Source: a virus
IMG/VR virus record: IMGVR_UViG_3300037606_000477
Location: 1-32,238 of that record
DNA length: 32,238 nt
Reading direction: 5' to 3' (one strand)
Part shown: one piece after another, positions 20,157-29,634 of the stretch
Position numbering within the stretch: the first letter of the stretch is position 1
Layout: each line of letters begins with the position of its first letter
The notes under the pieces: model-generated
What the model was told of the DNA's origin: nothing
Databases searched by the model: none
Seen by the model: only the letters and a program-made list of their open reading frames with translations
Translations under genes and position numbers: made by a program

Positions 20157-20275
20157 ACTTTTTTAGCAAAAAATATAATAAAAACATCATCCCTGTCCTT
20201 ATAAGTTTGTAAATAGAAACACCTAGCGGGGCGAATTAAAAAAGTGTAAGTGAGTTATGGTGTGCCTCACAAAAT

Positions 20276-20348
20276 GCTTCGATAGCTCAGTTGGTAGAGC
20301 CCCTCATTTGTAATGAGGTGGTCGTAGGTTCGAATCCTATTCGAAGCT
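20276..20348 (+). tRNA. tRNA-Thr (UGU)
   Basis: Full cloverleaf: acceptor GCTTCGA/TCGAAGC (7 bp), D-arm GCTC/GAGC, anticodon stem CCTCA/TGAGG with loop TTTGTAA (anticodon TGT) and T-arm GTAGG-TTCGAAT-CCTAT (one G-U). The discriminator is T and no CCA is encoded. A 5-bp hairpin (20250-20254 with 20266-20270) lies just before it. It reads ACA, a common Thr codon in this AT-rich genome. The stretch 20157-20275 has no gene. Confidence 0.93.
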
Positions 20349-20464
20349 CTAAAATAACTGTCTTTTAATTAGGTGGTTAAAAAATTAATTCGTAAATTTG
20401 CTCGTTGGTTTAGTTGTGCCGTAAAACAACCATTAGAATTTAAAATAAAATGTTTATAAGTGAT

Positions 20465-20576
20465 AGCGACTACTTACAAACTAGACAAAGAAAGATATAA
20501 TAAGCTTTGAAAGCTCTTTAATTAAAAAATCCCTTTGTAGTCGCTTTAAAAGGGAATTTTTGATTTTAGGGCTTTC
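20465..20576 (+). promoter_or_regulatory. Pseudoknot-prone leader with terminator-like hairpin
   Basis: AGCGACTAC (20465-20473) is the exact complement of GTAGTCGCT (20537-20545). The latter lies in the loop of a hairpin TCCCTTT (20530-20536) with AAAGGGA (20549-20555), which is followed by a T run (20557-20561). In addition GAAAGCTCT (about 20509-20517) pairs with AGGGCTTTC (20568-20576). It ends 13 nt before the ATG at 20590, so it may act as an attenuator or riboswitch-like switch. A weak promoter (TAAATTTG at 20393-20400, with TAG instead of TTG at -33) lies upstream. Confidence 0.6.
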
Positions 20577-20589
20577 TGCATTTTATATT

Positions 20590-21423
20590 ATGAACAAAAA
20601 AGTTTACATTAATAACGCTGAGTATAATACTTTCTTCAACACACCTAATGTTGATTCAGATAAGTTATGCGCTGTTTTTACTCACTTACGTGGGAACAAG
20701 AACGGAAATCGCCGTTATTCACCTAAAGGTAAACTTAAACATTTCTCTCTTCTTAGAGAATTTACTGGAATGTCAAGACACGCAATTGAAACTTATGTAC
20801 CAATTTTAATAAATATTGGCGTTGTCACTTTAAACAGTGATGGTGGTGTTTCTGTTATGGGTTTTAACAGCACGTTTAAGAAGCTTAGAACGTCTGAAAC
20901 TCGTATAATACATATTCCAATTGAAATGTGTAAATCGTTCTTAAAAACGGCTGTAAGTGTTGGTTCAGTACGTATCAAAACAAATATTAGAAAACAGAAT
21001 AAACAAATAGACTTAAAGGAAACGCAGACTAAACTACTTAAAAAATATGTTTATCAGCAACAAAATCCTACAAAATCAATTCTGTCAAAGAAGGAAACTT
21101 CGGCGGTAGGTAAGATTATTGAAAGATTTGGTTCGATAAATGAATTCACTAAAGCTTATTGCGAAGAAGTTATCCTAAGTCAAAACGGATTTACTAACCT
21201 TAATGGGGGAGTAGATGGTAGATATTTTAAAAAACAGTTATTAGCAAGTGGATTTATAGAATCTAAAATCAGAACAGAAAAACTTACAAATGCAATTCAG
21301 TATCCAGAATACCTAAAGATTAAAACTACTATCATCAGTTCTGTTGGTAATGGTGTCTTTTGGTGCCCCTCTGATAAATGCGTCTATAAGTACTTAGCTA
21401 GTTCTTTGGTTTGGATTAAATAG
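20590..21423 (+). CDS. Winged-helix-like DNA-binding protein (replication or regulatory), 277 aa
   Basis: I start at the ATG at 20590; the longer frame from a TTG at 20560 would run through the leader hairpin. Residues ~10-95 suggest a winged helix: 'HFSLLREFTGMSRHAIETYVPILINIGVV' is a helix, turn, recognition helix and strand pattern, and 'LNSDGGVSVMG' would be the wing. The rest is basic and helical. RepA-like initiators and phage transcription factors share this layout. The structured leader implies separate control. The exact role is not determined. Confidence 0.72.
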   Translation: MNKKVYINNAEYNTFFNTPNVDSDKLCAVFTHLRGNKNGNRRYSPKGKLKHFSLLREFTGMSRHAIETYVPILINIGVVTLNSDGGVSVMGFNSTFKKLRTSETRIIHIPIEMCKSFLKTAVSVGSVRIKTNIRKQNKQIDLKETQTKLLKKYVYQQQNPTKSILSKKETSAVGKIIERFGSINEFTKAYCEEVILSQNGFTNLNGGVDGRYFKKQLLASGFIESKIRTEKLTNAIQYPEYLKIKTTIISSVGNGVFWCPSDKCVYKYLASSLVWIK

Positions 21424-21459
21424 GAATAGGGAAAAGAATTTTTTTTTAAGTAGTAGAGA

Positions 21460-21479
21460 ATTTTCAGCAAGTTGAAAAT
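21460..21479 (+). terminator. Weak hairpin after the winged-helix gene
   Basis: ATTTTCA (21460-21466) pairs with TGAAAAT (21473-21479), 7 bp with a 6-nt loop, after a T8 run following the stop. No U tract follows the stem, so it may be only a weak terminator, placed right before the next promoter. Confidence 0.4.
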
Positions 21480-21493
21480 AATATAAAATAAAT

Positions 21494-21524
21494 TTGCAAG
21501 ACAAAAATAAAAGAATTACATTTG
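21494..21524 (+). promoter_or_regulatory. Promoter for the small-gene operon
   Basis: TTG (21494-21496), 20 nt, TACATTTG (21517-21524), 22 nt before the ATG at 21547. Confidence 0.75.
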
Positions 21525-21546
21525 TATTGTAAAGAAAAAAAGAGAA

Positions 21547-21834
21547 ATGAAATATATAAGGGAGGGTTGGGCTCAATACTCAGAAAGGTTAAAATCATAT
21601 GATTACACTCAAGAGCAAATTGACGCAGTAAGAATAGTCAGAGAAGAAGCAGAACAAGTGCCAAACGAAATGTTTGACGAGCTTGTAAGACTAGGAGTAA
21701 TTGAGAGAACAAGAAAATTAAAGAAGAAAAGAAGTCTTTATGTCTTACAGGATGGGAAAATAGTATATCTTGAGCATTTTAACAAGCAACTGGAGTGGTG
21801 TGGATATTTTAAAGAGAGAGAAGATGGAGAATAG
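21547..21834 (+). CDS. Hypothetical protein, 95 aa
   Basis: Charged, helical N-terminal half (YTQEQIDAVRIVREEAEQVPNEMFDELVRLGVIERTRKLKKKRSLYVLQDGKIVYLE). 'MFDELVRLGVIERTR...LYVLQDGKIVYL' could be a small winged helix or a partner-binding fold. It starts behind its own promoter and overlaps the next gene by 11 nt. Family not recognised. Confidence 0.65.
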   Translation: MKYIREGWAQYSERLKSYDYTQEQIDAVRIVREEAEQVPNEMFDELVRLGVIERTRKLKKKRSLYVLQDGKIVYLEHFNKQLEWCGYFKEREDGE

Positions 21835-22039
21835 GTGTTATATGCTTGGTGAAGATGAATTCTTTGAAACATTTGAAGACCGTGTCTTTTATTTTGTTTT
21901 CGGCGAAAAAGAGATTAAAACAGGATTTTTAGAAAGCTTAAATCCAAATCAAAAATACAAAGAAGTAACAGAGAAAGAGTTAAGAAGAGAGATCAACATA
22001 AGATTACAGTACTTTACAAGAGATAAACTTGCACAGTAA
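21824..22039 (+). CDS. Hypothetical acidic protein, 71 aa
   Basis: The ATG at 21824 lies inside the end of the preceding gene and is preferred over a start at 21770, which would overlap it by 65 nt. Acidic and aromatic (FFETFEDRVFYFVFGEKEIK). The codons VFGEK contain the genome motif TTTTCGGCGAAA (21897-21908). Its 3' end carries the -33 box of the next promoter. Function unknown. Confidence 0.62.
   Translation: MENRCYMLGEDEFFETFEDRVFYFVFGEKEIKTGFLESLNPNQKYKEVTEKELRREINIRLQYFTRDKLAQ
21897..21908. repeat. Copy of the 12-bp motif TTTTCGGCGAAA
   Basis: Exact copy, inside the 71-aa gene, read as codons of Val-Phe-Gly-Glu-Lys. Other copies are at 343-354, 22169-22180 and 25861-25872. Confidence 0.6.
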
Positions 22040-22059
22040 TAATAAAAGAACTATCTTTA
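22029..22059 (+). promoter_or_regulatory. Promoter for 22.1-kb small genes
   Basis: TTG (22029-22031), 20 nt, TATCTTTA (22052-22059), 17 nt before the ATG at 22076. The -33 box overlaps the end of the 71-aa gene. The TTGCACAG start is identical to that of the PhoH-gene promoter at 27063. Confidence 0.72.
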
Positions 22060-22075
22060 CACAAAGAAACATAAG

Positions 22076-22273
22076 ATGACAATAGAACATTTATTAGAAG
22101 AGCATAAATTAGCCAAACTAGAAACTTGGGAACAATTAAACGAATTAAAACAGTTTGACACTTCTAAATTTTCGGCGAAAGAAAAAGAAGAAATAATATT
22201 ATCACTAATGGAACTTCAGATGGAATACTCTATGCGCTGTCTTTTTTTAAGTGAATTAGAAAGTTTATTATAA
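22076..22273 (+). CDS. Hypothetical protein, 65 aa
   Basis: Acidic, Leu-rich helical protein (EHLLEEHKLAKLETWEQLNELKQF...EEIILSLMELQMEYS), probably a helical hairpin or coiled-coil dimer. Contains a TTTTCGGCGAAA motif in codons for Phe-Ser-Ala-Lys. First gene behind its promoter; no family recognised. Confidence 0.65.
   Translation: MTIEHLLEEHKLAKLETWEQLNELKQFDTSKFSAKEKEEIILSLMELQMEYSMRCLFLSELESLL
22169..22180. repeat. Copy of the 12-bp motif TTTTCGGCGAAA
   Basis: Exact copy inside the 65-aa gene, in a different reading frame from the copy at 21897, so coding constraint does not explain both. Confidence 0.6.
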
Positions 22274-22284
22274 TATAGAATAAA

Positions 22285-22458
22285 ATGAAAGATCAATTTA
22301 TAATCGTTAACCTACACGACATGGACTACATGAAAGATAAAGAAGGTAAAATAATGTTCTTTGATACATTAAACGAAGCATGTGAAGTTTGCGGAATGTA
22401 TGAGTTTTCTGATGCTTGGGTAATGCAGTTAATGTATAACCATATTGAGAAGGATTAA
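22285..22458 (+). CDS. Small hypothetical protein, 57 aa
   Basis: ATG at 22285, 11 nt after the preceding stop; TAA at 22456. Sequence begins MKDQFIIVNLHDMDYMKDKE and continues with EACEVCGMYEFSDAW, a mixed alpha/beta small protein with a CxxC-like pair (C-E-V-C). Good spacing and normal composition support a real gene; function unknown. Confidence 0.6.
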   Translation: MKDQFIIVNLHDMDYMKDKEGKIMFFDTLNEACEVCGMYEFSDAWVMQLMYNHIEKD

Positions 22459-22469
22459 AAACAGAAATT

Positions 22470-22613
22470 ATGAAAACAAGACCAATAGAAATGGCTGAAC
22501 TAGAGATAATACTTTTAAGATTTAAAATAATGTTAGAGGAAGAACCTGATAGATACACCATTCAAGAGTTCATAGAACAAGAGGATTTTAGAAGAGATTT
22601 GTTTCCAAAGTGA
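22470..22613 (+). CDS. Small hypothetical protein, 47 aa
   Basis: ATG at 22470, TGA at 22611 overlapping the GTG of the next gene. Begins MKTRPIEMAELEIILLRFKI and ends EFIEQEDFRRDLFPK: acidic and helical. Tight coupling (GTGA overlap) with the next gene supports translation. No family known to me. Confidence 0.58.
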   Translation: MKTRPIEMAELEIILLRFKIMLEEEPDRYTIQEFIEQEDFRRDLFPK

Positions 22614-22981
22614 AAGAATCTAAAATAATTATAAAACAGTTCTCTGATAAATCTTCTAATTTTTGGGTAGACTTCGCACACTACTCTCTAAATGAAAATA
22701 AAGAAATAATTTGGTGTTCGGGCGAATCCGCCACAAAAGAAAAAATAGAGTTTTTAGAGGCATATATAAAAAGAAACAACAAAGTATTCAAAGAAAGAGA
22801 GAAAGTAGCTGAGATTAAAGATTATGATGCTCTATTTACGTTTGGTAAGCATATTAATACTAAAGTCGGAGATGTGTTTCTAAAAGATGCGACGTATTTA
22901 AAGTGGGCAAGGGATAATTACATTTTTAAGTCGGGCGAAGAAAAGTTAAAAGAACAGATTATAAAGGTATTGGGAAAATAA
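22610..22981 (+). CDS. ExoX C-terminal-like domain protein, 123 aa
   Basis: Starts at GTG in a GTGA overlap with the preceding gene. The N-terminal ~65 residues are mixed alpha/beta. The C-terminal part, 'LFTFGKHINTKVGDVFLKDATYLKWARDNY', matches the short F-G-K-x-x-x-x-x-x-x-V/I-x-x-x-D-x-x-Y-L-x-W module found at the end of exodeoxyribonuclease X and as stand-alone proteins in phages. No nuclease acidic triad was seen, so it is probably a nucleic-acid-binding accessory rather than an exonuclease. Confidence 0.7.
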   Translation: MKESKIIIKQFSDKSSNFWVDFAHYSLNENKEIIWCSGESATKEKIEFLEAYIKRNNKVFKEREKVAEIKDYDALFTFGKHINTKVGDVFLKDATYLKWARDNYIFKSGEEKLKEQIIKVLGK

Positions 22982-22990
22982 AAATTATAT

Positions 22991-23125
22991 ATGGAAATCA
23001 AACCATTAGACTTAAAACTATCAGAAGATATAAAGAGAATGTTAGAAATGCAAAAGTACGTTGAAAAACTTTGGGAAACTCATTTTTCAAAATACGTAGA
23101 GATAATTTCGGAGAAAAAGAAATAA
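22991..23125 (+). CDS. Small hypothetical protein, 44 aa
   Basis: ATG at 22991, TAA at 23123. Begins MEIKPLDLKLSEDIKRMLEM, single charged helix with Trp and His in the middle and a Lys-rich end. It fits the gene spacing of this operon (9 nt after the previous stop, 12 nt before the next start). Function unknown. Confidence 0.5.
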   Translation: MEIKPLDLKLSEDIKRMLEMQKYVEKLWETHFSKYVEIISEKKK

Positions 23126-23137
23126 AAACAGAAGAAA

Positions 23138-23383
23138 ATGAGTGCACAAACATTTAAATTAACATTAGGCAGTGAATACTTTGTAAACACAAATCTAAAA
23201 GATCAAGTAAAGCAAAGATATTTAAAAGTAGTGTCAGAACTAAAACATATTTACTACAAATGGTACCACAAATTATTAAATAAATTAACTTTAGGTTGCA
23301 GTTTTAAGGAGGCTTGGGTACATACTGTGGAAAGTATACCTGTAAAAATAGAATGGGGTTTAGGAAGTTTTGGTAAAAGATAG
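23138..23383 (+). CDS. Hypothetical protein, 81 aa
   Basis: Basic, mostly helical (VKQRYLKVVSELKHIYYKWYHKLLNKLTLG) with a C-terminal strand-rich part (ESIPVKIEWGLGSFGKR). No signal peptide or Cys cluster. It precedes the NinG-like nuclease; a DNA-binding partner is possible. Family not recognised. Confidence 0.62.
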   Translation: MSAQTFKLTLGSEYFVNTNLKDQVKQRYLKVVSELKHIYYKWYHKLLNKLTLGCSFKEAWVHTVESIPVKIEWGLGSFGKR

Positions 23384-23393
23384 ATATAAAATA

Positions 23394-23831
23394 GTGAAGA
23401 AATATAAAAAATTAGATTATAACACAAAAGATTTAGAAAGTTTGAGTACTTCCGATTTAAAAAAAGTTTGTGATTATTCTTTAAGACACTACTTATTAGC
23501 TAACCAAGAGTCAACTTATTATTTTTGCCCACTAAAAGAAAAAAACTATTCTACTGATAAGATGCATGTAGCCCATTTTTATGATAGAGGTATAATGTCA
23601 ACTCGTTATGATTTAAATAATTGCCACTTAATTTCAAGTCAATCTAATACGTGGGATTCTCAAATTCCAAAAGAAGGTTACAAGTCTCTACACCATTATG
23701 AATATGAAATATGGTTACATCAAAAATTAGGTGAAAAAAAGTTTAAAGAATTGTTGTGTAACTCAAAAAAATTGATTACATTTGCAAAAGAAGATTATAT
23801 AAAGCTAATTAAAAAGTTTAGAGATGAGTAA
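23394..23831 (+). CDS. NinG-like HNH-type endonuclease, about 145 aa
   Basis: The core 'KMHVAHFYDRGIMSTRYDLNNCHLISSQSNTWDSQIPKE' follows the lambda NinG/Rap pattern: H-x-x-H-F followed by R-x-D-x-x-N-x-H-x-x-C/S-x-x-x-N. NinG cleaves recombination intermediates in lambda. Here only one Cys is upstream (FCPLKEK), and the usual second zinc Cys in x-x-C is replaced by Ser (ISSQ), so zinc binding may differ. The start is GTG at 23394 or TTG at 23370; there is no ATG. The neighbouring RecA-type gene fits a recombination module. Confidence 0.72.
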   Translation: MKKYKKLDYNTKDLESLSTSDLKKVCDYSLRHYLLANQESTYYFCPLKEKNYSTDKMHVAHFYDRGIMSTRYDLNNCHLISSQSNTWDSQIPKEGYKSLHHYEYEIWLHQKLGEKKFKELLCNSKKLITFAKEDYIKLIKKFRDE

Positions 23832-24240
23832 TGAATCACACCCTTTTCATAAATTAATGTCTTTTGTTGAAGAGTATAATGAAAATAGAGAAAGCTTCAA
23901 TATGGAAAAGCTACAGTTAATGAGAGAAGATATTGCAATTAATCTTCTTTTACTTTCTGACAGTGTTAGTCAAACTATTGCTAACGCAGAAAGTAAAGAC
24001 TATGATAGAAAACGATTTTATGCACAAAGAGAAGAACATTATAGAAATGAAATAGATGAAAGAACAGGTAAAAATCACAATGTAGCTGATTCAGAGAGAT
24101 TAGCGAGATTAGATGCTAAAGAGATTGATGAAGCTTGCGCTTTTGCATATAAACAAAAAGAGAGGGCGAGGTTAACAGTCATAGCTATTCAACAAATCTT
24201 GAACTCAATTAGCGGACGAATTTCTAATTACAGTAAATAA
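23824..24240 (+). CDS. Hypothetical protein of the recombination module, 138 aa
   Basis: Helical, highly charged and acidic (FNMEKLQLMREDIAINLLLLSDSVSQTIANAESKDYDRKR...) with a second helical part rich in Arg and Glu. It overlaps the NinG-like gene by 8 nt, and the next gene starts at its stop (TAATG). A near-consensus promoter lies inside the NinG gene (TTG 23754, TACATTTG at 23776-23783, 19-nt spacer). Possibly a recombination mediator or structural helix protein; not recognised. Confidence 0.65.
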   Translation: MSNESHPFHKLMSFVEEYNENRESFNMEKLQLMREDIAINLLLLSDSVSQTIANAESKDYDRKRFYAQREEHYRNEIDERTGKNHNVADSERLARLDAKEIDEACAFAYKQKERARLTVIAIQQILNSISGRISNYSK

Positions 24241-24560
24241 TGTATCATCAACAAAAAAATCACTCCCAATTTAAAGAGGAGTTTTTTAATAAAAGCACAA
24301 AATTTTCCGAAAAAACCCTACGATTTATAACAGAATACGAAAATGTCAAAAAGCACTTATTGGTAGAATTTGAGGACTACGTATATAAAATAACCCCTAA
24401 TAATTTATTTAAAGGTAAGGATCTGAATATAATGTATTTGTTAAATAAAGAAAAGTATATAGAAAAAGAACTTCTAAAGTTAGGTATAAACTTAAAAATC
24501 GTAGAAGCGATAATATTTAAGAAAATAATAGATATAAATAATGGCGAAGAAATTAATTAA
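24240..24560 (+). CDS. Hypothetical protein, 106 aa
   Basis: Lys-rich helical protein (FKEEFFNKSTKFSEKTLRFITEYENVKKHLLVEFEDYVYKI) with a basic, Ile-rich C-terminus (KIVEAIIFKKIIDINN). Starts in a TAATG overlap and itself overlaps the RecA gene start by 20 nt, so translation is coupled. No known motif. Confidence 0.65.
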   Translation: MYHQQKNHSQFKEEFFNKSTKFSEKTLRFITEYENVKKHLLVEFEDYVYKITPNNLFKGKDLNIMYLLNKEKYIEKELLKLGINLKIVEAIIFKKIIDINNGEEIN

Positions 24561-25542
24561 AGACGGAGAAGAAGAATTAACAGCAATTGAAAAAATGTAT
24601 TTAAAGTATAATAAGACTGAAAATATATTTAACCCACCAACAGTAGATTTAGGGGATATTGATGTTTCAGTAGAACGATTAAAAAATCCCTTTCTATCAT
24701 TTGATAGGTATTTAGGTGGAGGCCCCGCTTACGGAAAAATTACAACTTACTCGGCTTTTGCCTCTTGTGGTAAAACTTCTTTGGCCTTAGCTTTTGCGGG
24801 AGTAAATAAAGATAAAGTTATTGGTTTTTGTGATAATGAGTTTAATTGGAGCGATTCTTCTTACATATGGATTGACAAGTACTTTGGTATAGAAAAGGAA
24901 AGAATACATGTACTACAACCAACATATCTTGAGGAAGGTGCAGAAATGGTTGAAGATTTATGTAATGTAGCAGATATTGTTATTTTTGATGGGTTTGATT
25001 CACTTGCCCCTAAAGCAGAATATCAAGCAACAATGGAAGAAATGCAAATGGGGCTTCAAGCTCGAGCATATAAAAAATTCTTCAGAAAAACAATGGGTAA
25101 AATATATAAAAGCAAAGCATCACTTGTAGTCACAAATCATTTATATGAAAATATTGGAAATGTATTTGAGCCTTTTAAAGAACCAGGTGGTAGAGCGATA
25201 CATGATTTTGCAAGTCAGAAATTATACCTTACTAGAAGTAACACAAAAGACAAAGAAAAACAAACTGTAGGACAAGATGTAAACGTAACAGTTAATAAGG
25301 ATAAATTATCAGGGCATAGAGGAGCAAAGTTTTCACTACCTTATAATAATAGAACAGGCTTTGATATAGAAATGGATATTTTAAATAATGCATTAGATTT
25401 AAAAATAGTCCAACAGACAGGGGCTTGGTATGCTTATGATGGCACAAAAATTGGTCAAGGTAAGGATAATGCAAGAGACACATTGAAAGATAATCCTGAA
25501 TTAATGTTAGAAATAGCTAACCTCTGTAGAGAAAAATTTTAA
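24541..25542 (+). CDS. RecA/UvsX-type recombinase, 333 aa
   Basis: Strand-exchange ATPase. The P-loop is A71-F-A-S-C-G-K-T78, of the [AG]xxxxGK[ST] type but with Ala in place of the common Gly-Pro-Glu-Ser start. The following 'GFCDNEFNW' (near 95) provides the catalytic Glu. Walker B is 'DIVIFDGFDSLAPK'. The L2-like loop is 'PFKEPGGRAIHDFASQKLYL'. The C-terminus 'GAWYAYDGTKIGQGKDNARDTL' is a close RecA match. Length is similar to bacterial RecA (352 aa in E. coli). It works with the SSB at 30140 and probably the nearby NinG-like gene in recombination-dependent replication. Identity is clear; host versus phage ancestry would need a tree. Confidence 0.93.
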   Translation: MAKKLIKDGEEELTAIEKMYLKYNKTENIFNPPTVDLGDIDVSVERLKNPFLSFDRYLGGGPAYGKITTYSAFASCGKTSLALAFAGVNKDKVIGFCDNEFNWSDSSYIWIDKYFGIEKERIHVLQPTYLEEGAEMVEDLCNVADIVIFDGFDSLAPKAEYQATMEEMQMGLQARAYKKFFRKTMGKIYKSKASLVVTNHLYENIGNVFEPFKEPGGRAIHDFASQKLYLTRSNTKDKEKQTVGQDVNVTVNKDKLSGHRGAKFSLPYNNRTGFDIEMDILNNALDLKIVQQTGAWYAYDGTKIGQGKDNARDTLKDNPELMLEIANLCREKF

Positions 25543-25570
25543 TATAGAAGCGTAACAAAAAAGCAAAAAA

Positions 25571-25653
25571 AGGTTCGTAGTAGCTTCCCACCAAACCAAG
25601 AACCTCGAAAAACTCACTAGAAATAAGGAGAGTTGTTAGGGTGGGAATTTTTT
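25571..25653 (+). ncRNA. Compact pseudoknotted RNA ending in a terminator
   Basis: TTCCCACC (25585-25592) pairs with GGTGGGAA (25640-25647) and a T6 run follows (25648-25653), a good intrinsic terminator. AGGTTC (25571-25576), which lies before it, pairs with GAACCT (25600-25605) inside its loop, giving a pseudoknot. A third stem, AACTC (25611-25615) with GAGTT (25630-25634), is nested inside. It lies between recA and the 59-aa gene, so it may terminate the recA transcript, regulate the next gene or be a small RNA. Confidence 0.6.
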
Positions 25654-25675
25654 AAATAAATAAAACAAAAAAATT

Positions 25676-25855
25676 ATGAAAAAATTACTATTATTCCTCT
25701 TAGAGGTAACAGGAGAAATTTCAGTCCAAAAAACTGGAGAAAAGGCTTTAAAAAGTGGTTTGTATAGAAGTGGTAAGCAAGTAATTCCATTAGCTAAGTC
25801 AGAACGGTTTCCACCTAGTGAGGATAATGTTTGGAATTTAGTTGTTTCTGTTTAA
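25676..25855 (+). CDS. Small hypothetical protein, 59 aa
   Basis: ATG at 25676, TAA at 25853. Begins MKKLLLFLLEVTGEISVQKT, ending in SERFPPSEDNVWNLVVSV. The C-terminal stretch 'YRSGKQVIPLAKSERFPPS' resembles a Y-x-S-G-x-x-I-P-L-x-K-x-E-x-F-P-P motif I recall in small Bacteroidetes-phage proteins. The N-terminus is hydrophobic but too short for a clear membrane anchor. It lies just after the pseudoknotted RNA and before a TTTTCGGCGAAA copy. Function unknown. Confidence 0.62.
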   Translation: MKKLLLFLLEVTGEISVQKTGEKALKSGLYRSGKQVIPLAKSERFPPSEDNVWNLVVSV

Positions 25856-25860
25856 TCCTT

Positions 25861-25872
25861 TTTTCGGCGAAA
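25861..25872. repeat. Intergenic copy of TTTTCGGCGAAA
   Basis: The only copy of this 12-mer outside genes, in the 34-bp gap before the membrane-protein gene at 25890. With flanks it becomes TTTTTCGGCGAAAAA, a 6-bp stem with a 3-nt loop. Confidence 0.62.
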
Positions 25873-25889
25873 AATAAAAAAACAACAAA

Positions 25890-26273
25890 ATGACAAACGT
25901 AATTTATATTTACTTTATAATTAATGCTTTTATAGCAGGATACACCTATAAAGATACCTATAGTTGGGAAACTAAGTTAACTTCTATTTCATACACTTTT
26001 TTTGCTTTGCTAGTAGGAATACCATTTTATATAATATTATTTATTATTAATGCCTCTGCTCCGATATTAGGATGGACTCATATAGAGATCAAATTTCAAT
26101 ACAGATTTCATTTTACGAAATATTGGGATAAAATACTTTTAGACGATAATTATTCTCCGATATACAAAACATTAGAAGATAAATTAGAAAGGGCTGAGAA
26201 ACTTACGAGAGGTAGTTCAAAACAAGTGAGAAGGCACAATAAAAAAGTAAAAAATAGATATGAAAAACTTTAA
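25890..26273 (+). CDS. Membrane protein, 127 aa
   Basis: Two hydrophobic segments are visible, about residues 4-20 (VIYIYFIINAFIAGYTY) and 33-57 (YTFFALLVGIPFYIILFIIN), followed by a basic, charged tail (TRGSSKQVRRHNKKVKNRYEKL) probably on the cytoplasmic side. It overlaps the next small gene by 14 nt. It may alter the host membrane or anchor replication; not a lysis gene by position. No family recognised. Confidence 0.7.
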   Translation: MTNVIYIYFIINAFIAGYTYKDTYSWETKLTSISYTFFALLVGIPFYIILFIINASAPILGWTHIEIKFQYRFHFTKYWDKILLDDNYSPIYKTLEDKLERAEKLTRGSSKQVRRHNKKVKNRYEKL

Positions 26274-26418
26274 ATGGTGCAGAAAATGGTTAGGGGGTAA
26301 TTGGTACAAACATGAAAACACATTTCAGTTGCAGTGTTTATATTTTGATTATTTTTGGGTAAGATATGGAGAGATTAATAGATACACAAAGGTGGTAGAA
26401 GTAGAAAGATGGCAGTAA
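26260..26418 (+). CDS. Small aromatic-rich protein, 52 aa
   Basis: ATG at 26260 inside the preceding gene, TAA at 26416 overlapping the next ATG (ATGGCAGTAA). Begins MKNFKWCRKWLGGNWYKHEN, with five Trp and many Tyr/Phe residues. Chained overlaps on both sides support translation. Possibly an interacting or beta-rich mini-protein; unknown. Confidence 0.6.
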   Translation: MKNFKWCRKWLGGNWYKHENTFQLQCLYFDYFWVRYGEINRYTKVVEVERWQ

Positions 26419-26837
26419 AAAAGAAAGAAACCGTAGAATGGACTTATAATAATATTATAGTAGATAACATTTTAAAAACACCTGAAGGTTCCCTAGCATT
26501 CATTTACAAGATATCTTTACTTGATGGCACAGGTCGTTATTATTATGGCCGTAAAACTATGTGGAAGCCACGCTATACGAGCGGTAAAAATAAAGGAATA
26601 AGTAAGGGGTTGTATGTTTGGCGAACTTACTGTGGTTCATCAAAGGAACTTACGGAATTAATCAAGGGTAATACACCTTACAAAAAAGAAATACTCAAAT
26701 TCTGTTTCTCAAAAGCAGAAACAAGTTATGAAGAAACTAAACAAATACTTTGTGGGGGAGGTTTGACAGACCCTCTATGTTTGAATTTTTGGATAAAAAG
26801 TTTGATTTACTCTAAACATTTAGAACCAAATAGTTAA
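26409..26837 (+). CDS. Probable GIY-YIG-like nuclease, 142 aa
   Basis: The layout fits GIY-YIG domains: 'AFIYKISLLDGTGRYYYGRKTMW' has Y-x-x-x...Y-Y-Y-G-R-K in place of GIY...YIG, then 'YCGSSKELTELI' and 'KKEILKFCFSKAETSYEETKQIL' with a conserved Glu position. A basic loop (KPRYTSGKNKGISKG) is inserted between them. The C-terminus has a Cys (ILCGGGLTDPLCLN). It could be a repair, restriction or DNA-processing nuclease of the early module, or a small homing remnant. The assignment is pattern-based. Confidence 0.6.
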   Translation: MAVKKKETVEWTYNNIIVDNILKTPEGSLAFIYKISLLDGTGRYYYGRKTMWKPRYTSGKNKGISKGLYVWRTYCGSSKELTELIKGNTPYKKEILKFCFSKAETSYEETKQILCGGGLTDPLCLNFWIKSLIYSKHLEPNS

Positions 26838-26862
26838 ATTTCCGCAAAAAAAATAAATAAAA

Positions 26863-27036
26863 ATGACAGAAGAACAGTATTTAATAATGGTAGGAATAAG
26901 AAGTATTGAGTATTCATATACAGATGAAGAGTTATTCAATAACTTGGAATACTTTAAAAAGTGTCACAGACGAGGATTAAGTGCATATAAAGCATTACTT
27001 TTTCTGTTTGATGAGTGGAGTTTTCCATCGGATTAA
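26863..27036 (+). CDS. Small hypothetical protein, 57 aa
   Basis: ATG at 26863, TAA at 27034. Begins MTEEQYLIMVGIRSIEYSYT and ends LFLFDEWSFPSD. Acidic helical protein. It is flanked by similar spacers AATTTCCG(C)AAAAA (about 26839 and 27035). Function unknown. Confidence 0.58.
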   Translation: MTEEQYLIMVGIRSIEYSYTDEELFNNLEYFKKCHRRGLSAYKALLFLFDEWSFPSD

Positions 27037-27062
27037 ATTTCCGAAAAAAGTAAGCTAAACAA

Positions 27063-27093
27063 TTGCACAGCTAAAAAACATTACTTATATTTA
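27063..27093 (+). promoter_or_regulatory. Promoter for the PhoH-like gene
   Basis: TTG (27063-27065), 20 nt, TATATTTA (27086-27093), about 22 nt before the ATG at 27115. Shares TTGCACAG with the promoter at 22029. Confidence 0.75.
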
Positions 27094-27114
27094 CTGAAAT
27101 AAATAAACATAATT

Positions 27115-27762
27115 ATGAAAGAACCGAACAGAGTTAGAAAATCAGAGATTAAGTATAATTTACAATTAAACGAAGAGCAAAAAGAAGCTAAAAGACTAAT
27201 TTTAGATAACCAGATTGTAATAATTACTGGGCGTGCGGGATCGGGGAAAAGTTTGGTGGGAGCTATCACAGCTTTAGATTTTTTAAGTACAAAACAATGT
27301 GATAAAATTTTAGTTACGAGAATTGCAATAGAAGTAGGAAAATCATTGGGTTATCTTCCTGGAAATTTAGATGACAAATTTAATGTGTATATCGAAGCAC
27401 TACTAGAAAATTTATACAAGTGTGCAGATAAGTCTAAAATAGACGAGTTTGTGAAAGATGGTAAGATACAAGGATTACCTGTCCAATATATTAGAGGTAA
27501 GACAATTGATGATGTTTTATTAGTTGAAGAGGCTCAAAACTTAACAGCAAAAGAGATGGAAGCAATTTTATGTAGATTAGGTAAAACAGGTAAGATAGTA
27601 ATTAATGGAGATCAAGCTCAGCGTGATATAACAGAAACTTACACAGGATTAGATTTTGCAATTGAGTTATCTAAAAATATTAAAGGTATAAATCATATCA
27701 AACTTAAAGAAAACCATAGGAGTGGATTAGTTGGAGAAATTTTAGATTATATTTATAAATAA
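27115..27762 (+). CDS. phoH: PhoH-like ATPase, 215 aa
   Basis: P-loop G39-R-A-G-S-G-K-S46, Walker B region 'VLLVEEAQN' (134-142), 'VINGDQAQRDI' and the C-terminal 'ENHRSGLVGEILDYI' (199-213) give the PhoH/SF1-helicase-like fold. PhoH-like genes are common in phages and may act in RNA processing or phosphate stress; the phage role is unclear. The single-domain form is shorter than the host version (~300 aa). It is transcribed from its own promoter, and its stop directly precedes the promoter of the non-coding RNA locus. Confidence 0.88.
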   Translation: MKEPNRVRKSEIKYNLQLNEEQKEAKRLILDNQIVIITGRAGSGKSLVGAITALDFLSTKQCDKILVTRIAIEVGKSLGYLPGNLDDKFNVYIEALLENLYKCADKSKIDEFVKDGKIQGLPVQYIRGKTIDDVLLVEEAQNLTAKEMEAILCRLGKTGKIVINGDQAQRDITETYTGLDFAIELSKNIKGINHIKLKENHRSGLVGEILDYIYK

Positions 27763-27764
27763 AT

Positions 27765-27795
27765 TTGTAAGTTAAAAAGTAAAGTTGTATATTTG
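27765..27795 (+). promoter_or_regulatory. Promoter of the 1.1-kb non-coding RNA locus
   Basis: TTG (27765-27767), 20 nt, TATATTTG (27788-27795). No protein gene follows for over 1.1 kb, so this promoter should make RNA that is not translated in its first part. It starts 3 nt after the phoH stop. Confidence 0.78.
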
Positions 27796-27799
27796 TAGA

Positions 27800-28011
27800 A
27801 GATAAAAACAAGCTGAAATACAAGACGTAGCATTAGATGTAGAATTGACTTTGAAACAAAAGGTTGTCTAATGTTATAACTCTTAAACCAATAAAGAGTG
27901 TGTTCTTGTGATAGGAAGTAGTAAGTAAGTGCTCCATTGATATCAGGGTTGAGGAGCTCCTGAATTATTTTCAACGGTTGGAATGTTGACTTGTTTTTTA
28001 TCTTTTTTTTT
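27800..28011 (+). ncRNA. Structured RNA, first segment of the non-coding locus
   Basis: Begins where the promoter predicts and ends in a T-rich terminator: TCAAC (27971-27975) with GTTGA (27985-27989), then TTGTTTTTT and T9 (to 28011). Other stems are CATTAGA (27831-27837) with TCTAATG (27867-27873), ACTCTT (27879-27884) with AAGAGT (27894-27899), and a small pseudoknot of GCTCC (27931-27935) with GGAGC (27953-27957) and TCAGG (27943-27947) with CCTGA (27959-27963). No ORF was found. It may be a ~210-nt sRNA or the 5' domain of a longer RNA. Confidence 0.6.
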
Positions 28012-28081
28012 GCGGAAAATTAAAATAAGTAAATACGAACCTTCTTTGGTGGAAGACAGACACATAATATGAATTTATTAT

Positions 28082-28215
28082 TCTCGGTAGAGAGTTCAAG
28101 ATGAAATTGCTTGTAAGAAGTTTTACTTAAATATCGGTTACATCTCCTCGAATAGTATTCTTGGACTGACCCACGTTGCTTGTTTAACCGAGAGTGTCAA
28201 GTGGGTTTATTTTTT
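28082..28215 (+). ncRNA. Pseudoknotted terminator RNA, second segment
   Basis: GACCCAC (28168-28174) pairs with GTGGGTT (28201-28207, one G-U), followed by TTTATTTTTT, a good terminator. Its 26-nt loop holds ACCGAGA (28187-28193), the exact complement of TCTCGGT (28082-28088) 80 nt upstream. An AT-rich hairpin ATAATA/TATTAT (about 28066-28080) precedes it. No ORF and no consensus promoter directly in front, so it likely belongs to the RNA started at 27800. Confidence 0.6.
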
Positions 28216-28314
28216 GGAGTAAAAGGGTTGTGTGATGATTTTAGGTAGGCTAGGACAAACTAGATGGCTAATGATATGTAGCTTAACACTGGGGGTTCGA
28301 TTCCACCTGCTCCA
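28215..28314 (+). tRNA. tRNA-like module with enlarged interior
   Basis: TGGAGTA (28215-28221) pairs with TGCTCCA (28308-28314) as a 7-bp acceptor-type stem. A T-arm GGGGG-TTCGATT-CCACC (28291-28307, one mismatch) abuts the acceptor 3' strand exactly as in tRNA. The interior (~69 nt) is too long for D plus anticodon arms and shows other hairpins (CTAG at 28250 with 28260; GGCTA 28266-28270 with TAGCT 28279-28283). No anticodon can be named. It could be a tRNA with an insertion or a tRNA-like end of a larger RNA. Confidence 0.45.
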
Positions 28315-28322
28315 CAAAACAG

Positions 28323-28363
28323 ACCACAAGAGGAGTGACAAACAGTAAGGGTTTGTAAGTGGT
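28323..28363 (+). ncRNA. Two-tier hairpin between tRNA-like modules
   Basis: ACCAC (28323-28327) with GTGGT (28359-28363) encloses ACAAAC (28338-28343) with GTTTGT (28351-28356). It sits between the modules at 28215 and 28370 and is part of the same RNA locus. Confidence 0.5.
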
Positions 28364-28369
28364 AAAGTT

Positions 28370-28440
28370 TAGTCAATAGCTCAATTGGATAGAGTGGGGG
28401 ATAAAACTCAGGGATATTGGTTCGAGCCCAATTTGACTAC
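28370..28440 (+). tRNA. tRNA-like gene with abnormal anticodon arm
   Basis: Acceptor TAGTCAA (28370-28376) with TTGACTA (28433-28439), D-arm GCTC-AATTGGATA-GAGT, and a perfect T-arm ATTGG-TTCGAGC-CCAAT. Between D-arm and T-arm only 20 nt remain (28396-28415) instead of the usual 22-23, and no regular 5-bp anticodon stem with a U33 loop forms. It is tRNA by three arms but no amino acid can be assigned; it may be decayed or work as a tRNA mimic. Confidence 0.55.
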
Positions 28441-28544
28441 CTATTCCAATCCTAAGGAAACAAATAAAAGGAGAGATTAAAGTTGTTCTCACAAGACAAC
28501 CGTTGGCAGAAAGACGTGAAAGATTCTGTGACTAATAGGAATAG
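28441..28544 (+). ncRNA. Closed structured domain in the RNA locus
   Basis: CTATTCC (28441-28447) pairs with GGAATAG (28538-28544), directly next to the preceding tRNA-like module. Inside are GTTGT (28482-28486) with ACAAC (28496-28500) and CAGAA (28507-28511) with TTCTG (28524-28528). No T-loop and no ORF. Confidence 0.5.
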
Positions 28545-28555
28545 ACTATTCTTAA

Positions 28556-28761
28556 TTCGTGATGGTGTAATTGGAAGGCACGCCTAAAGTTAAGTCGGTA
28601 GGTGGTAAGGGCAATAAGAGGAGTGTAATGATAAGTGGGAGTAATTAACCACTGAACTGCCAAAGTTAACTATTATTACAAATTAAAATGACCTAAAAGT
28701 AGAAGCAAGAAGTACGTATTACTTGTGAAAGCTCCGTGTAGGTTCGAGTCCTACTCACGAA
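28556..28761 (+). tRNA. tRNA scaffold interrupted by ~130 nt of structured RNA
   Basis: Acceptor TTCGTGA (28556-28562) with TCACGAA (28755-28761), D-arm GTGT-AATTGGAAG-GCAC (28565-28581, with A14 and GG in the loop) and a perfect T-arm GTAGG-TTCGAGT-CCTAC (28738-28754) are all tRNA-like. The anticodon region is replaced by ~150 nt. That insert folds on its own: TGTAATGATA (28624-28633) with TATTATTACA (28671-28680, one G-U) stacks on AGTGG (28634-28638) with CCACT (28649-28653), and AAGTA (28710-28714) pairs with TACTT (28720-28724). The exon boundaries and anticodon could not be fixed. It is too small for a usual group I intron. Confidence 0.5.
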
Positions 28762-28762
28762 A

Positions 28763-28850
28763 CACTAGTTGCTTAATTTGAACATAAAAAGTAACAGGCA
28801 TTGTAGAGTTCAATCTAGTGAATGTTAAGTCTTAATCACGCAGAATTAAG
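28763..28850 (+). ncRNA. Last structured segment of the RNA locus
   Basis: CACTAG (28763-28768) pairs with CTAGTG (28815-28820) around a 46-nt interior, and CTTAAT (28831-28836) pairs with ATTAAG (28845-28850). There is a GTTCAATC T-loop-like string near 28808 but no proper T-stem. No ORF. Confidence 0.45.
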
Positions 28851-28890
28851 GAGAGTACTTAAGGTAGGCATGTGCCAAACTCTCATTTTT
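28851..28890 (+). terminator. Terminator of the non-coding locus
   Basis: GAGAGT (28851-28856) pairs with ACTCTC (28879-28884), with an inner GGCA/TGCC stem (28867-28876), followed by ATTTTT. It separates the RNA locus from the genes that begin at 28914. Confidence 0.6.
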
Positions 28891-28913
28891 AAAAAACATA
28901 TACATTTACAATT

Positions 28914-29069
28914 ATGAAAATTTCAGGAAATGGCTTTACTTACTTTGTAGAAAATAAAGAAGTTAAAAGTTTTGAAGAGTGGGAAAGATTAACAAAAAAT
29001 GGAGATTGGATAACTAAAGTTAAAGACTTAGAATTAAGAACAACTAAAATTAAAAGTAATGGAGAATAA
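28914..29069 (+). CDS. Small hypothetical protein, 51 aa
   Basis: ATG at 28914, TAA at 29067. Begins MKISGNGFTYFVENKEVKSF and ends LRTTKIKSNGE; small, basic, alpha/beta. It overlaps the next gene by 11 nt (ATGGAGAATAA). A weak -7 (TACATTTA, 28901-28908) lacks a proper -33, so expression may come from read-through. Confidence 0.6.
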   Translation: MKISGNGFTYFVENKEVKSFEEWERLTKNGDWITKVKDLELRTTKIKSNGE

Positions 29070-29634
29070 TGCTAGGCATTTTATTGGTAACGTTGAAGTA
29101 GATAAAGAGGATATTAAAAATTGTACAACTAGTGCCACAAAAAAGAGTGGAAAGTCTATAAGTACAACTATGTTTCTTGATGAGGTATTAAGTGAGTTAT
29201 TTTCAGATTGTAATAATACAAGAAAAAAAGATAACAAGTATAATGAAAAAAATTGGGGAGTACTAAAAAATAACTTTAAAGGTTCTGTTTTTGAAACAAC
29301 AGAGCATCCACTAAAAGAAACAAAGGGTGTTAAATATAATGATGGTAAATTACCTCTAGATATTATGCTAACAAGACAGTTCCCAAAAGCTTTAAATGCA
29401 GTGTGTCAAGCAACTATGTTTGGACACAATAAGTATAAAGATACAGATGTCGATTTTTTAAATTTTAAAAAAGTATTAGGGGGGAGTCAAACTTATGCGG
29501 ATGCTTTACAAAGACACAGTGTTGACAAAAGTGTAATAGATTTAGACAGTGGATTGCCTCACATCTTTCATAAATGCTGGAATGCATTAGCAGAACTTGA
29601 ATTATGGATTGAAGAAAATAAATTTGCACATTAA
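29059..29634 (+). CDS. dATP/dGTP diphosphohydrolase-like (MazG-related fold), 191 aa
   Basis: From about residue 90: 'GVKYNDGKLPLDIMLTRQFPKALNAVCQATMFGHNKYK', then 'GGSQTYADALQRHSVD' and 'DSGLPHIFHKCWNALAELELWIEE'. This is the phage dATP/dGTP diphosphohydrolase N-terminal-domain pattern (N-D-x-K-L-P at the start, a G-x-x-K-Y mid-motif, and H-x-x-x-x-W-N-A-L-x-x-L-E-L helices). Such enzymes remove dGTP/dATP or related nucleotides to adjust pools. The first ~90 residues are a separate polar, Lys-rich part with no recognised domain. The promoter for the next operon overlaps its 3' end. Confidence 0.8.
   Translation: MENNARHFIGNVEVDKEDIKNCTTSATKKSGKSISTTMFLDEVLSELFSDCNNTRKKDNKYNEKNWGVLKNNFKGSVFETTEHPLKETKGVKYNDGKLPLDIMLTRQFPKALNAVCQATMFGHNKYKDTDVDFLNFKKVLGGSQTYADALQRHSVDKSVIDLDSGLPHIFHKCWNALAELELWIEENKFAH

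Follow-up and report, generated by a model that had tools for sequence, protein, structure and literature searches.

In the fluoride, ZTP and preQ1 riboswitch platforms, co-transcriptional pairing between a loop and a strand influences a terminator. Structured leaders are also described for phage T4, in which the gene 32 leader holds a pseudoknot and, ahead of the start codon, a run rich in A+U, and leader hairpins restrain translation of homing endonucleases of the I-TevI, mobE and segB type (PMC3014915). None of the T4 precedents described in that source has the layout that we report here for a 32,238-base virus record (IMG/VR record IMGVR_UViG_3300037606_000477, analysed over its whole length and called the window below). 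At positions 20465-20576 (plus strand, as are all window features given below), a strand A precedes a long hairpin with stem halves B and B' whose apical loop carries the complement of A (A'), giving the order A, B, A', B', with a U-rich run at the end. The site first noticed (20465-20561) sits in the leader of the window's first rightward gene (open reading frame (ORF) 20590-21423). We read 20465-20576 as a putative cis-acting pseudoknotted leader attenuator controlling the gene directly behind it, and on the sequence evidence put the probability of this reading at about 0.5.

The pairing at 20465-20561 is as the initial annotation described it: strand A (AGCGACTAC, 20465-20473) is complementary to the hairpin loop, where A' (GTAGTCGCT, 20537-20545) forms an exact 9-nt match, and the inner stem is TCCCTTT/AAAGGGA. 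The full hairpin is longer than was noted and is composed of AATTAAAAA/TTTTTGATT and GAAAGCTCT/AGGGCTTTC. In the minimum free energy (MFE) fold the 5' half of the outer stem (GAAAGCTCT, 20509-20517, with counterparts in the related leaders of contigs G004 and G007) is followed, across a TT/TT 2x2 internal loop, by the 5' half of the inner stem (20520-20536), which consists of AATTAAAAA, one A/A mismatch and TCCCTTT. The 3' half of the inner stem (20549-20565; AAAGGGA, A and TTTTTGATT) contains a first U-tract, and the 3' half of the outer stem (AGGGCTTTC, 20568-20576) is followed by a U/A-rich run up to the start codon (20568-20589 in all). The U-tailed hairpin stops 14 nt before the start codon, which lies outside the fold of 20509-20576. 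When the upstream DNA was shuffled, a 9-nt loop complement as at 20465 had p = 0.006, and layouts with a 9-bp A and a 6-bp B occurred at a mean of 0.017 per shuffled copy of 20200-28900.

Homologous leaders, traced through protein homology, synteny or DNA similarity and not through the fold, keep A/A' together with the stem and not the stem alone, with the letters rewritten; the pattern that the initial annotation would have taken as refutation, stems retained without A/A' complementarity, is not what is seen. This holds for five leaders (G004, G007, G003, G008 and G002) that differ almost wholly in sequence, with per-leader p values of 0 to 0.034 (1000 upstream shuffles); in all five the stem has a U-rich 3' side and the inner stem ends 24-34 nt before the start codon. 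The G004 (L006) leader, with A GCGAAGATA and A' TATCTTCGC, is recognisably related to that of the window. In G007 (L080), where the encoded protein shows 62% identity, the pair is GTAGTGC/GCACTAC. The pairs in G003, G002 and G008 are GTAGCACT/AGTGCTAC, GTGGAAACC/GGTTTCCAC and GTGGAAAGG/CCTTTCCAC, respectively; G008 and G003 are 78% identical over the 3' half of the leader, yet A and A' have been rewritten in G008. In G004 (31780-33165) the related leader is kept and the gene behind it has been swapped for an unrelated BT4734-like protein, so that the leader goes with the locus and not with any single gene. A letter-based IMG/VR search for the tail AGGGCTTT...GCATTT gave 37 matches, of which only G004 and G007 are true members.

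Covariation across phages, which the initial annotation had proposed as a check, revealed compensatory changes in A/A'. In an alignment of five leaders that align well (L208, L170, L204, L173 and L177), changes on both sides affect 5 of the 7 pairs in A/A' and 3 of the 4 in the inner stem, and standard pairs fill 98.9% of cells over the proposed pairs; about half of the cells or fewer were paired in slid-partner controls, and none of 500 shuffles reached the covariation score. The endonuclease leaders of G002 and G007 keep A/A' as the linker drifts, with stem changes compensated (GAAAAGTCTG/CAGACTTTTC versus AAAAAGTCTA/TAGGCTTTTT), and in another endonuclease leader three stem positions are not the same in G003 and G008, yet all of them still pair via G-U. 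These comparisons support the structure well and show that selection keeps the A/A' complementarity as the letters change.

The same layout recurs in other leaders when the relatives' whole contigs are scanned for strands ordered A, B, A', B'. Of 94 genes preceded by a promoter at a distance of 90-420 nt, 7 have a leader scoring 39 or higher, against a mean of 0.08 and a maximum of 1 in 100 shuffles, and with neither promoter nor U-tail required 13 leaders score at least 40 (1.03 when shuffled). These leaders also top the list when whole genomes are scanned for small hairpin loops with a complement in the DNA upstream. In a cross-leader control, 17 of 19 loops had a complement of 7 nt or more in their own leader, compared with only 9.6% in other leaders, which speaks for specificity; the control is not independent on its own, as the 19 loops include cases found by fold. 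Loose topology scans that allow G-U and ignore leader context barely exceed shuffles (213 versus 191); the signal separates only with leader context and tighter geometry. In family hairpins generally the apical loop is complementary to A over 7-9 nt, and in 17 leaders the inner stem ends 12-35 nt before the ATG. The downstream genes include GIY-YIG and T5orf172 endonucleases and, by eye, LAGLIDADG and HNH types and a protein resembling single-stranded DNA-binding protein (SSB; one member, G009 75388, by eye only).

An independent set was assembled with two endonuclease queries from these loci, whose relatives across IMG/VR provided 111 previously unexamined leaders. Counting as a match a hairpin loop that lies 30-65 nt before the start codon and has an exact 7-nt upstream complement, 20 of the 111 leaders match (about 17 of them distinct, as L208/L210/L211 share an identical leader and so do L256/L257), against 0.93 expected and a maximum of 3 in 40 shuffles. 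At energies of -14 kcal/mol or below there are 16 (0.1 expected) and at -17 kcal/mol or below 7 (0 expected), and a second, helix-based scoring places 14 at a score of at least 38 versus 1.05; by eye the leaders of L163, L177, L199, L217 and L219 also fit. The layout is common and not universal: by strict criteria most of the tested endonuclease leaders lack it, G011 and G012 gave no match and G009 one convincing case, and among those inspected no endonuclease gene of crAss-like phages or of Flavobacterium phages FL-1 and FpV4 has such a leader. The loop GTGAGAT and the upstream strand ATCTCAC are common to the leaders at G008 131952, G009 75332 and in L172, which differ in genes and stems, and these shared letters suggest either loop exchange or a common binder.

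The folding order fits attenuation by a helix that forms early and hinders the terminator or, as a pseudoknot, locks it, because prefix folds favour A:A' and the finished RNA favours the hairpin: A:A' is present in the MFE fold of the prefix ending at A' for 13 of 17 leaders, and B:B' replaces A:A' in most full-length folds. Nearly all members have a U-rich run after the stem (3' side or tail), and the inner hairpins range from -2.4 to -26.8 kcal/mol. In the proposed mechanism nascent A' would pair with A while the hairpin still lacks its 3' half; A:A' would then delay the terminator, compete with it or, as a pseudoknot, lock it, and the fraction of RNA polymerases entering the gene would depend on whether A is free. 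The presence of the same leader on homing-endonuclease genes suggests that the expression of potentially harmful DNA enzymes may be kept low or timed in this way. Several points weigh against attenuation. Some high scorers have short U runs when no U-tail is required, which would suit a role in translation as well; a pseudoknot may hold the stem and A:A' at the same time, with no competition between them; and A lies about 70-126 nt from the promoter in replication-type leaders versus 10-26 nt in most endonuclease leaders.

Control of translation, in which the pseudoknot would act on ribosome entry and perhaps be bound by the gene product or a ribosomal protein, is a possible but tentative alternative, to which the tight 12-35 nt between hairpin and start codon in 17 leaders lends itself, as do the DNA enzymes encoded by several downstream genes and the precedents of T4, both the gene 32 leader pseudoknot and the mobE, segB and I-TevI leader hairpins that lower translation (PMC3014915). 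Such control needs no U-tract, however, and nearly all members carry one; moreover the start codon is outside the hairpin, unlike in the T4 endonuclease hairpins, and by Pfam the window's gene shows no sign of encoding an SSB. Many endonuclease leaders have A beginning 10-26 nt past the start of the TAnnTTTG-type (-7) promoter box, and A is therefore predicted to lie near the RNA 5' end. This position would also suit a stable RNA of short length (small RNA or 5' untranslated region fragment) with its 5' end tied to the 3' terminator loop against nucleases and the gene expressed by read-through, and candidate RNAs of this kind without a gene directly behind occur at phi4:1 91619-91742 and G002 22417. 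We consider this unlikely, as almost every member sits a short way ahead of a start codon, which points to control of the gene that follows, and A of the window is about 70 nt from its promoter.

Ribosome-mediated attenuation, by which a ribosome translating a short upstream ORF across A would block A:A' and set the terminator, is improbable. Sequence inspection shows an ORF of 16 codons running through A in the window (20450-20500), with a similar one in G004 and another over A at G008 111983, but an ATG-started ORF over A is absent from the replication-type leaders of G007, G003 and G008; upstream ORFs are not kept, and leader-peptide attenuation was rejected as a general rule. Chance complementarity in AT-rich leaders fits the window sites at 25571, 27931 and 28082, whereas for 20465 and the family it is refuted by the shuffles, the cross-leader control, the out-of-sample test and the covariation, and we regard it as very improbable there. 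The attenuator reading is the one that we prefer.

The initial annotation had seen the layout four times within the window. All four sites exist as letters, but only 20465-20561 is above chance; upstream shuffles place the other three at chance level, and of 5 layouts of 6+6 bp in the region (0.9 in shuffles) a single site survives closer tests. For 20465-20561 the proposed family of pseudoknotted terminators or attenuators, in which letters vary and layout is kept, holds, while the four window sites, mostly chance matches, are not evidence for it. The true family consists of the orthologous loci and of leaders of homing-endonuclease genes in other phages. The site at 25571-25653 is an ordinary terminator hairpin after recA with a 47-nt loop, of which at most 6 nt are complementary to upstream DNA (p = 0.50). 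It has no promoter in front, and after RecA the relatives have no such element, two of them having only a plain terminator hairpin. The site at 27931-27963 is a compact 5+5 bp H-type layout of another geometry (p = 0.24). That at 28080-28215 is a terminator-like hairpin inside an RNA-gene cluster, a doubtful case with a 7-nt complement (p = 0.10) and two competing copies of A. Partial support for 28082-28215 comes from G002 22417, which has GAATAGTATTCTTG in common with it and a similar strand order. This 14-mer is found at window 28150 and at G002 22382 (minus strand), inside otherwise dissimilar terminator-bearing RNAs.

Upstream of A, a Bacteroidota-type -7 promoter box TAAATTTG (TAnnTTTG) is found at 20393-20400 with a weak -33 element; the homologous leader of G004 has the box TATATTTG and TTTTTG upstream of it. 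A small leader hairpin at 20407-20431 (loop GTGCCGTAA) is present in G004 too (GTGCCGCAA) and absent from G007, while TTTAGGGCTTT near the 3' end of the leader is invariant in the window, G004 and G007. A tRNA-Thr gene (20276-20349) lies just before the leader, and gene direction flips at about 19.7 kb, from leftward on the left to rightward on the right. The product of ORF 20590-21423 (277 aa; homologues in G003, G002, G005 and G007) has no match in a Pfam search and is probably replication initiator-like. The window's RecA is 68% identical to RecA of Cellulophaga phages phi4:1 and phi17:2 and 78-83% identical to that of six IMG/VR records (L005 and L006 matching one and the same sequence over the part they share), and repeating the search with recA added no relatives. 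The window is a fragment of a Cellulophaga phi4:1-like phage; promoter type and relatives suggest Bacteroidota as hosts of the IMG/VR contigs.

Elsewhere in the window are a gene for a SegE-like GIY-YIG endonuclease (26409-26837) and one with a dATP/dGTP diphosphohydrolase N-terminal domain (29059-29634). Short palindromes of the type TTTTCGGCGAAAA recur at 341, 21897, 22169, 25859 and 28003, and in relatives several stand shortly before start codons. tRNA-like genes of 100-200 nt, in which the 7-bp acceptor stem and T-arm are intact and unusual sequence replaces the D and anticodon arms, occur in the window (28556-28761 and about 28214-28317), G004 (40952-41059), G006 (phi4:1; 91135-91250) and G002 (119034-118914). 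These could be tRNAs carrying inserts or RNAs derived from tRNAs; that at 28216-28317 has a sub-threshold tmRNA match.

Rfam covariance models gave only tRNAs at gathering scores, with no riboswitch, T-box, group I intron or HEARO and no credible weak match over 20340-20620, and neither Rfam nor a non-exhaustive literature search yielded a description of the layout. A leader defined by architecture and not by sequence would evade ordinary RNA-family searches, which may explain its absence from Rfam. We see roughly even odds that the family represents a sequence-free RNA switch not described before, present in several groups of phages whose promoters are of the Bacteroidota type. It would be a portable cassette on selfish homing-endonuclease genes and some replication genes, made up of promoter, 5' strand A, a terminator hairpin bearing A' in its loop, and start codon, in which nucleotides near the mRNA start would read their own terminator loop. 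Homing endonucleases are among the commonest selfish phage genes, and their silencing outside T4-like phages is hardly known. If true, this would be a compact two-helix switch with freely drifting letters, useful for annotating phage control and for seeing terminator loops as regulatory contacts.

Compared with known systems, the element shares with intrinsic terminators and attenuators a hairpin and U-rich run between promoter and gene, but differs in that 7-9 nt of the loop match an upstream strand, a complementarity kept by covariation, and has neither a known ligand nor a leader peptide or consensus sequence. Unlike the fluoride, ZTP and preQ1 riboswitches, the family has neither conserved aptamer letters nor an Rfam match. 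With T4-type endonuclease hairpins it may share an RNA structure limiting homing endonuclease expression; those hairpins sequester the ribosome site, whereas the present ones leave the start codon outside and pair through the loop with a distant strand. The resemblance to T4 gene 32 lies in a pseudoknot-type arrangement, here the A-B-A'-B' order with kept complementarity, ahead of a probable replication gene of a phage, and in A+U-rich sequence leading up to the start codon; but the gene 32 pseudoknot is compact and SSB-bound, while the present leaders combine a long hairpin, a U-tract and a 20-60 nt linker and precede many unrelated genes.

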